Source: Bacillus sp. AFS055030 (GTDB taxonomy: Bacteria > Bacillota > Bacilli > Bacillales > Bacillaceae_G). Taken from it: 41,258 bases of DNA. Below the pieces are notes generated by a model. The model was not told the origin of the DNA. It did no database searches and saw only the letters and a list, made by a program, of their open reading frames with translations. Both the position numbers and the translations under genes were made by a program. The stretch is taken from positions 1 to 41,258 of the forward strand of contig NZ_NUGT01000033.1 in NCBI RefSeq assembly GCF_002574545.1, in the 5' to 3' direction. Shown one piece after another: positions 33,230-34,779 of this stretch. Every line of letters starts with the position of its first letter. The first letter of the stretch is position 1.

Positions 33230-34300
33230 ATGAAACAATACTTAGATTTATGTAAACACGTATTAGACAATGGCATGACAAAAACAGACCGGACTGGAAC
33301 AGGAACAATTAGTACATTCGGTTATCAAATGCGATTTAATCTTCAAGATGGCTTCCCTTTAGTAACAACTAAGAAAGTTCATTTAAAATCAATCATCCAT
33401 GAATTATTATGGTTTTTAAAAGGCGACACGAATATTCAATATTTAAAGGAAAATGGTGTTCGTATTTGGAATGAGTGGGCAGATGAAAATGGTAATTTGG
33501 GACCTGTATATGGTGAACAATGGAGATCATGGAAGACTTGTGACGGCTCAACAATTGATCAAATTACAGAAGTTATTAATCAAATAAAAACGAATCCAGA
33601 TTCTCGAAGATTGATTGTTTCTGCGTGGAATGTTGGAGAACTTGATAAGATGGCTTTAGCGCCATGTCATTGTTTTTTCCAGTTCTATGTAAATGATGGG
33701 AAACTTTCTTGTCAGCTTTATCAGCGTTAATTCTGAGCGCCTTTACAGAGTAATCTGTACCGAAAACCTTGCTAAACGGGGAAACTCTTAAATAAAGACA
33801 ATCCCGTGCTAAATTTATTCTTATGTGACGAAAAGAATAATAAATGCCTAACGACTATCCATTTATGGAGTAGGGTGCAAGTGATTGGCACCCGAAATGC
33901 AAGGGACCTTTATGAGGTCGTGATATAGTCTCATCTGCATGGTGACATGTAGCAGTTCTTTTTAAGAACGGGCCAAGTGTAACGAACTTGGTTGAAGATC
34001 TTGTCAGCTGACATTTTTTTAGGAGTACCGTTTAATATCGCATCTTATGCACTATTAACAATGATGATTGCTCAAGTATGTGATTTAGAATTAGGTGATT
34101 TTGTACATACATTTGGTGATGCACATATCTATACAAATCATCTTGAACAAATTAAATTACAACTTACTAGAGAACCACATAAATTACCAAAAATGAAGTT
34201 AAATACTGACATTAAAAACATTTTTGATTTTAAATTTGAGGATTTTACATTAGAAGATTATGAATGTCATCCTGCGATCAAAGGGGTAGTAAGTGTATGA
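33230..34300 (+). CDS. thyA: Thymidylate synthase, interrupted by a group I intron
   Basis: Converts dUMP to dTMP with methylene-THF, yielding dihydrofolate. The coding parts are 33230-33727 (166 codons) and 34004-34300 (98 codons plus stop); joined they give 264 residues, exactly the E. coli ThyA length. The catalytic Cys146 is in [11 protein letters not shown]. The junction falls between Arg166 and Ser167 in [15 protein letters not shown], the dUMP-phosphate-binding motif. Without splicing, translation ends at UAA, the first three intron bases, giving an inactive 166-residue product. The start follows TTAGGAGGTCAGGT. The stop overlaps the dfrA start (ATGA). This is the ThyB/E. coli-like type normally paired with dfrA in Bacillus. 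Confidence 0.94.
33728..34003 (+). ncRNA. Group I self-splicing intron in thyA (td-like, ORF-less)
   Basis: 276 nt. P1: exon GCGU (33724-33727) with GCGC (33737-33740), giving the U-G splice pair. P10: CUGA (33733-33736) with the first four exon-2 bases UCAG. P2: ACAGA-GUAA-UCUGU (33745-33758). P3: CCUUGC (33767-33772)/GCAAGG (33899-33904). P4/P5: ACGGG/CCCGU. P6: UUAUUCUU/AAGAAUAA (33815-33839). P7: GACUAU (33853-33858)/AUAGUC (33925-33930). P8: GACCU/AGGUC. P9: CUGCAUG-GUGA-CAUGUAG (33935-33952). P9.1 and P9.2 follow. The last base is the expected G. Core segments CTAAACGGGGAA, AATCCCGTGCTAAAT and AAATGCCTAACGACTATCC match the T4 td intron as I recall it, so subgroup IA2 is likely. There is no endonuclease gene; the P6 loop is about 9 nt. 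Confidence 0.95.
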
Positions 34301-34779
34301 TTGCTGCACTAGTTGCGATGTCAGAAAACAATGTAATCGGCTTAAATAACCAAATGCCTTGGCATCTTCCACAAGAGCTTGCTTACTTTAAAAAAGTAAC
34401 AACTGGGTATACAATTATTATGGGAAGAAAAACGTTTGATTCGATTGGCAGACCGCTTCCAAACCGTGAAAACATCGTTGTGACAAGACAAAAGGATTTT
34501 CATGCAGAAGGTGTTACAGTCATAAATGATGTAGTAAGTTATATAGAAGAAAATAAACATAAAGATTTATTTATAATAGGTGGAGCTGAAATTTTTAAGT
34601 TAACATTCCCATATTTAGATACACTTTATATAACTGAAATTGAACATAACTTTGAAGGCGACACTTTCTTTCCGAATTTTTCAAAAGAAGATTGGACTAT
34701 TAAATCTGTTTCGGATGTACAAGTCGATGAAAAATCAAAAATTAAATATAGATATTTTGTTTATGAAAAAAAGTGTTGA
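34297..34779 (+). CDS. dfrA: Dihydrofolate reductase
   Basis: Regenerates tetrahydrofolate from the dihydrofolate made by thymidylate synthase. 160 residues, typical for the chromosomal bacterial enzyme. Visible landmarks are [14 protein letters not shown] with Trp22 and the catalytic acid Glu27, [18 protein letters not shown] for NADPH binding, and IIGGAEIF. The ATG at 34297 overlaps the thyA stop codon (ATGA). No clear ribosome-binding site precedes it, so it probably depends on ribosomes finishing thyA exon 2. A longer frame from 34264 lies inside thyA and is not the start. A promoter for azoR overlaps its last codons. Confidence 0.95.

Follow-up and report, generated by a model that had tools for sequence, protein, structure and literature searches.

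The thymidylate synthase gene (thyA) in the window, a 41,258-nt stretch of Bacillus sp. AFS055030 (GCF_002574545.1, contig NZ_NUGT01000033.1, forward strand), is interrupted by a 276-nt group I intron. With high confidence, the element can be read as a self-splicing group IA intron that lies between codons 166 and 167 of the sole thymidylate synthase gene found, has an I-BmoI-like ancestry and has lost its endonuclease. Introns of this kind in thyA are already known; this one is a further member, set in an unusually clear evolutionary series.

The interrupted thyA gene and its predicted dependence on splicing

The 166 codons of exon 1 are followed directly by a UAA, and an in-frame exon 2 runs from 34004 to a stop at 34300, exactly as the preliminary description had placed the interruption and the resumption 276 nt later. 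When 33728-34003 is omitted, the frame encodes a 264-residue protein with no internal stop that matches Pfam Thymidylat_synt over its full length (E 2.8e-132). The joined frame and the Pfam match agree with the earlier proposal that splicing would give a 264-residue ThyA in which LSCQLYQR is joined to SADIFLG. The locus is arranged as follows.

33230..33727, + strand: thyA exon 1, codons 1-166, ending CAGCGT (from the reading frame)
33728..34003, + strand: group I intron, 276 nt, no ORF, starting with an in-frame UAA and ending in G (RF00028 81.8 bits, covariation)
34004..34300, + strand: thyA exon 2, codons 167-264 plus stop, starting TCAGCTGAC (from the reading frame)
34297..34779, + strand: folA (dihydrofolate reductase), its start overlapping the thyA stop (from a protein scan)

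The neighbors appear to be ordinary chromosomal genes, among them genes for SSB-family, disulphide isomerase family, methyltransferase, flavodoxin-fold and acyltransferase proteins as well as folA, and no sign of a prophage was found among the ten neighboring proteins scanned. Within the 4.39-Mb genome (91 contigs), matches to thyA are confined to this locus and thyX gave no match, nor did thyX match in any of the 13 genomes of the genus. A second thyA or a thyX, which would have spoken against the preliminary description, was thus not found in the genome, an absence that is strong but, in a draft of 91 contigs, not absolute. With no other thyA or thyX found, ThyA should depend on splicing, and splicing of thyA should be essential. 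Synthesis of dTMP would then apparently be routed through a ribozyme, making thymidine-free growth a simple readout of splicing in a bacterial chromosome.

Structure of the intron

In a local permissive scan, the intron matched the Rfam group I model RF00028 (Intron_gpI) at full length (model positions 1-253) with 81.8 bits against a cut-off of 50 (E 3.4e-21), a favorable outcome of the covariance search that had been proposed as a check. A scan of the whole 41-kb window at the gathering threshold with fast filters gave no match and so missed the intron, which an Rfam search of the genome recovered. Given that fast filters can miss an intron scoring 81.8 bits, routine annotation can miss such introns. 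Six of eight related loci matched RF00028 under permissive settings; two gave no match at E 0.01, one in G342, where the locus has a long insertion, and one in phage KKP_4047. The minimum free energy of 33718-34015 lies 3.8 SD under 200 shuffles.

All nine helices named in the preliminary description (P1, P2, P3, P6, P7, P8, P9, P9.1 and P9.2) can be drawn, along with P10 and with P4, P5, P7.1 and P7.2, which it had omitted, and every pair listed below is a standard pair on the window's sequence.

33724..33740, + strand: P1, exon GCGU 33724-33727 with intron guide GCGC 33737-33740 and a U-G pair at the 5' splice site; invariant in the aligned sequences
33733..33736, + strand: intron strand of P10, CUGA, whose partner is exon 2 UCAG 34004-34007; drawn, with a compensatory change
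33745..33758, + strand: P2, with a GUAA loop; drawn, alignment
33767..33904, + strand: P3, 33767-33772 with 33899-33904; two-sided changes at 4 of 6 pairs
33776..33807, + strand: P4 (33776-33780 with 33803-33807) and P5 (33786-33789 with 33795-33798); drawn, alignment
33808..33847, + strand: P6/P6a, with a 10-base loop at 33823-33832 where sister introns hold a GIY-YIG gene or its remnant; drawn, alignment, sisters
33853..33930, + strand: P7, the guanosine-binding helix, 33853-33858 with 33925-33930; nearly invariant
33859..33893, + strand: P7.1 (33859-33868, weak) and P7.2 (33873-33893), a mark of group IA
33905..33919, + strand: P8; two-sided changes at 4 of 5 pairs
33935..33991, + strand: P9 (33935-33952), P9.1 (33955-33969) and P9.2 (33973-33991); drawn, alignment

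The core was compared in 11 of 17 introns (10 bacterial, 1 phage), an alignment that omits the ORF-bearing introns of G007 and G342, the divergent one of G112 and those found later in G403, G404 and G240. Pairing holds in 96.1% of its 864 cells and falls to 33-43% when partners are slid by 1-3 columns. Two-sided changes occur at 36 of 80 pairs, compared with a mean of 14.7 in shuffled alignments, none of 500 shuffles being as high. P7.2 pairs in all cells and changes on both sides at 4 of 6 pairs; pairing is imperfect in some relatives in P7.1 (72.7% of cells), P6a (88.9%) and P9.1 (90.6%). As P1 is constant and P7 almost entirely so, the alignment speaks neither for nor against them. The U-G pair claimed at the end of P1 is nevertheless drawn on the sequence and invariant in the alignment. 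A second alignment (12 of 17 introns, 3 of the 7 from the genus) was counted for P1 and P10 only, MAFFT having misplaced P6-P7 of G112 and G240. P10 pairs in 91.7% of its cells. G112 and G240 have CAGA/UCUG in place of CUGA/UCAG, a compensatory change that bears out the proposed pairing of UCAG with the CUGA adjoining the P1 guide; elsewhere UCAG faces strands that mostly end in UGA.

The element thus combines an above-cut-off match, a pseudoknotted P3-P7 core with P4-P6 and P8, the U-G pair of P1, P10 and a terminal G, position 34003 being G as had been stated. From P7.1 and P7.2 between P7 and P3, we take it to belong to subgroup IA (IA2). No ORF of at least 80 aa starts and ends within the 276 nt, and the P6a loop has only 10 bases. 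Rfam match, covariation and absent ORF together uphold the central claim of the preliminary description, an ORF-less group I intron in a chromosomal thyA.

Given this anatomy, the transcript would fold into a ribozyme whose 5' splice site is set by P1, made of exon GCGU and guide GCGC. That site would be attacked by a guanosine held in P7, P10 would align the 3' site, and ligation would restore the 264-residue ThyA. In the unspliced message, translation ends at 166 residues at the UAA that forms the first intron codon; this codon likely also keeps ribosomes off the ribozyme.

Related introns in Bacillales and phages

Seven of the 13 genomes of the window's genus have an intron at this codon of thyA, with lengths of 276, 278, 281, 293, 335, 343 and 1060 nt, and the other six are intronless there. 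A DNA search of 397 genomes of the order found intron matches in at least 15, at least 12 of them in thyA at codon 166/167, while the remaining three (G011, G018, G310) adjoin genes that look by eye like ribonucleotide reductase genes. These counts are lower bounds, as the split thyA of G240, a genome in the set, went unreported and was found later, and G009, G403 and G404 are missing from the results of this search. Split genes occur in 4 of 13 genomes of genus g90, in 2 of 9 of genus g79 and in G388, G181 and G112; in g90, a motif search missed 4 of the 9 intronless genes, which were inspected separately. In total, an intron at codon 166/167 was found in 16 bacterial genomes, seven from the window's genus and nine from other Bacillales genera, and in phage KKP_4047. 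All of 80 named contig loci from many phyla, none from the window's own genus, are intronless at this codon.

Among 583 matching phage records, only those of KKP_4047, KKP_4048 and KKP_4050 have at least 80% of the intron covered in one place; in a plasmid collection, six partial matches were found, none covering 80%. The thymidylate synthase gene of KKP_4047, an SPO1-type phage (PP579742.1), is split at the same codon by an intron that is likewise ORF-less but 298 nt long, and 69% identical to that of the window over 96% of the intron. The phage record annotates two thymidylate synthase genes with no intron between them. The 5' splice pattern was found at 7 loci in a scan of viral contigs, and by tblastn two of these (L145, L146) contain pieces of thyA. 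L146 is an IMG/VR contig whose thymidylate synthase is 32-41% identical; its thyA breaks off at the pattern after residue 166 and continues from 167 about 1.5 kb on, an interruption at the same residue that suggests more distant phages share the site. The pieces of L145 gave no clean alignment, and both loci were left out of the intron counts.

The introns of the sisters differ in what remains of an endonuclease. In G342, the loop holds a complete 264-aa ORF with GIY-YIG, NUMOD3 and I-TevI DNA-binding domains. In G007, a frameshifted GIY-YIG gene occupies the P6a loop: its parts, read in two frames, fit the models for GIY-YIG, NUMOD3 and I-TevI DNA-binding domains, and the known structure of the I-TevI catalytic domain is matched by the first of them. 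In G003, G009 and G388, only the start of the gene appears, by eye, to be left. The window's intron has no endonuclease of its own and is not counted here as a homing intron with a GIY-YIG enzyme. Given the complete, frameshifted and remnant genes in its sisters, the ORF-less form appears to represent a late step in the homing cycle, and the sister remnants suggest that the gene was lost from the window's copy rather than never present. As this one site presents the endonuclease gene whole, broken, as a remnant or missing, alongside alleles that have no intron, the homing cycle can be read in a bacterial housekeeping gene.

The site of the phage T4 td intron presumably lies 21 nt downstream of the window's site in the gene. 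The td intron also sits in a thymidylate synthase gene, is 1017 nt long and carries the GIY-YIG I-TevI ORF in its P6 loop, according to the available parts of PMC3073962 and PMC1995217. In passages of PMC1995217 and PMC3161791, the chromosomal thyA of B. mojavensis has a group I intron of 1122 nt that encodes I-BmoI, and PMC1995217 gives the thy intron of phage beta22 as 392 nt with a pseudo endonuclease gene. The B. mojavensis intron resembles that of the window in its chromosomal thyA location, in an exon 1 ending CGT and in an intron ending TG, with a GIY-YIG gene as in the window's sisters; it differs in its length and active endonuclease. The window's exon 1 end, CGT, is that of the intronless I-BmoI substrate, and its intron end (TG at -2, -1) matches the uncut intron-containing substrate (PMC3161791, Table 2). 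Over bases -6 to -1, by which alone the site was compared, the published intronless I-BmoI site reads GCCCGT and the window CAGCGT. The beta22 intron shares the thymidylate synthase gene and a degenerate endonuclease gene but lies in a phage and is longer than that of the window. Given the published B. mojavensis case, as far as these excerpts describe it, and the 16 bacterial genomes found here, the preliminary description overstated how uncommon such introns are in a chromosomal housekeeping gene.

Other introns were seen in these genomes. In 8 of 13 genomes of the genus, a second group I intron, which scores 45.9-54.6 bits against RF00028 (2 of 8 under the cut-off of 50), lies in rtcB (RNA ligase family) just before the DIGCGM motif (G000:C36:93896-94184, locus L002, and loci L125-L131); among the papers listed by a literature search, none dealt with a group I intron inside rtcB, going by titles and abstract starts. 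The rtcB introns and the thyA introns of G112 (L139) and G240 (L223) would end in A rather than the usual G, and a literature search on introns with a terminal A yielded nothing that looked relevant from its listing. These junctions are those required by the reading frame; P10 supports them in G112 and G240, and those in rtcB are putative. G240 has no in-frame G within 20 nt of the junction, and the one in G112, 4 nt before it, would add one residue. Matches to the P7-P9 part of the intron also lie between two ORFs that look by eye like ribonucleotide reductase genes (L112, L116, L117, L118, L119, L140), in five members of the genus and in G018 of the same family, which may point to a third family of introns in circulation among these chromosomes.

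Exon flanks and the history of the site

Exon 1 ends CAGCGT in all 17 intron-bearing genes, and exon 2 starts TCAG in 15 and TCTG in 2. The joined sequence CAGCGT/TCAG (slash at the intron site) occurs in 3 of 102 intronless thyA genes (80 named loci, 6 from the window's genus, 9 from g90 and 7 from g79), all three among the 80 loci from many phyla and two (L029, L036) among the 19 picked as Bacillales; the footprint alone is thus no proof of a past intron.

Among close relatives, with G004 (a different type of thyA, 51% identical) and the outgroups G006 and G008 set aside, seven intron-bearing and three intronless genes share no base at six of 789 thyA positions. These are -4, -3, -1, +1, +2 and +3 (CAGCGT/TCA versus CAAAGA/AGY), all silent in Gln-Arg-Ser and all inside the exon strands of P1 and P10. 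The two empty-site sequences of thyA are CAGCGTTCA and CAAAGAAGT. Across all 120 possible 7/3 splits of the ten genomes, the next best has 3 such positions and 98 have none. A Fisher test was set aside, its tally being partial, entered by hand and made up of related sequences. Of 18 Arg/Ser codons conserved in all ten, three (126, 166, 167) switch codon box, and for the junction codons 166 and 167 alone the switch coincides with the three intronless genomes. The fixed silent differences fall on the P1 and P10 partners and nowhere else, which is natural evidence for the importance of both pairings in the cell. In g90, the stretch from -33 to +59 is identical in G329 and G403, which are 87.9% alike over 885 nt; the intronless G402 is 95.1% like G329, with 10 of their 43 differences between -4 and +18. 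A simple reading would be that exon flanks were co-converted during homing and have since eroded, apart from the bases that P1 and P10 keep in place. The co-conversion of exons next to mobile introns was reportedly studied in yeast mitochondria by Repar and Warnecke (2017). In that fungal system, according to the available part of PMC5378118, exon diversity is raised beside mobile introns and splice-pairing exon sites are conserved, whereas here the gene is bacterial and chromosomal and the fixed differences are confined to the partners of P1 and P10.

Judging by its relatives, the window's intron likely descends from an I-BmoI-like homing intron. Endonuclease-driven gene conversion would have carried that ancestor through Bacillales and their phages, the endonuclease gene being later lost from the P6a loop. 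The window's intron would now be immobile by itself and may persist because precise loss seldom occurs and splicing leaves it almost neutral. It is most improbable that the element is instead retained and regulatory, or bypassed in translation, with ThyA made from unspliced message, for example as two separate chains. Exon 2 does lie in an ORF of its own (33992-34300) that starts from a TTG within the intron, but assembly from chains needs neither the covarying ribozyme core nor the junction bases kept in all 17 intron-bearing genes and rare among intronless ones, so that both count against it. A dead intron in a thyA pseudogene, the strain living on imported thymidine, would fit the decay of the endonuclease gene in sister G007, by which parts of these introns do decay. 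Still, both exons are intact and encode protein 92-98% identical, exon by exon, to that of the six intron-bearing sisters (counted from alignments starting at residue 1 or 167), no substitute for the enzyme turned up in the genome, and the intron helices are preserved, making a pseudogene very unlikely.

Vertical inheritance of an intron old in the genus, with losses in G001, G005 and G011 and no homing, is a more serious alternative, albeit one we consider rather unlikely. The introns within the genus are 92.1-97.5% alike, near the 91.0-96.2% of the thyA exons in the same seven genomes, and neither the recA nor the thyA tree is resolved well enough to rule out a single gain with two losses. 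However, the three intronless alleles are without the CAGCGT/TCA footprint that precise loss would leave, and the identity of G329 and G403 around the site, against their divergence over the gene, is as co-conversion predicts.

A related but doubtful possibility is that the intronless alleles of the genus are homing-resistant, having been silently recoded from CAGCGT/TCA to CAAAGA/AGY at bases read by the intron and the endonuclease in an arms race between host and intron. AGA at codon 166 is found in 3 of 6, 6 of 9 and 5 of 7 intronless genes of the invaded genera versus 5 of the 80 named loci, raw counts that include kinship and codon bias. Against resistance, AGA retains G at -2, the base that matters most to I-BmoI in the available part of PMC3161791 (Table 2), a TCN serine codon follows the site in most intronless genes of g90 and g79, and the recA and thyA trees are, as noted, of poor resolution. 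If resistance were nonetheless the cause, the sequence of an essential chromosomal gene would bear the traces of this arms race between host and homing intron.

Extra C-terminal pieces of thyA, starting from near codon 172, were also observed in G177 (L210, L213, L214) and G227 (L212), with one per genome about 15 kb (G177) or 3 kb (G227) downstream of the intact thyA. They look like scars of elements that integrated beside the intron site and replaced the 3' end of thyA.
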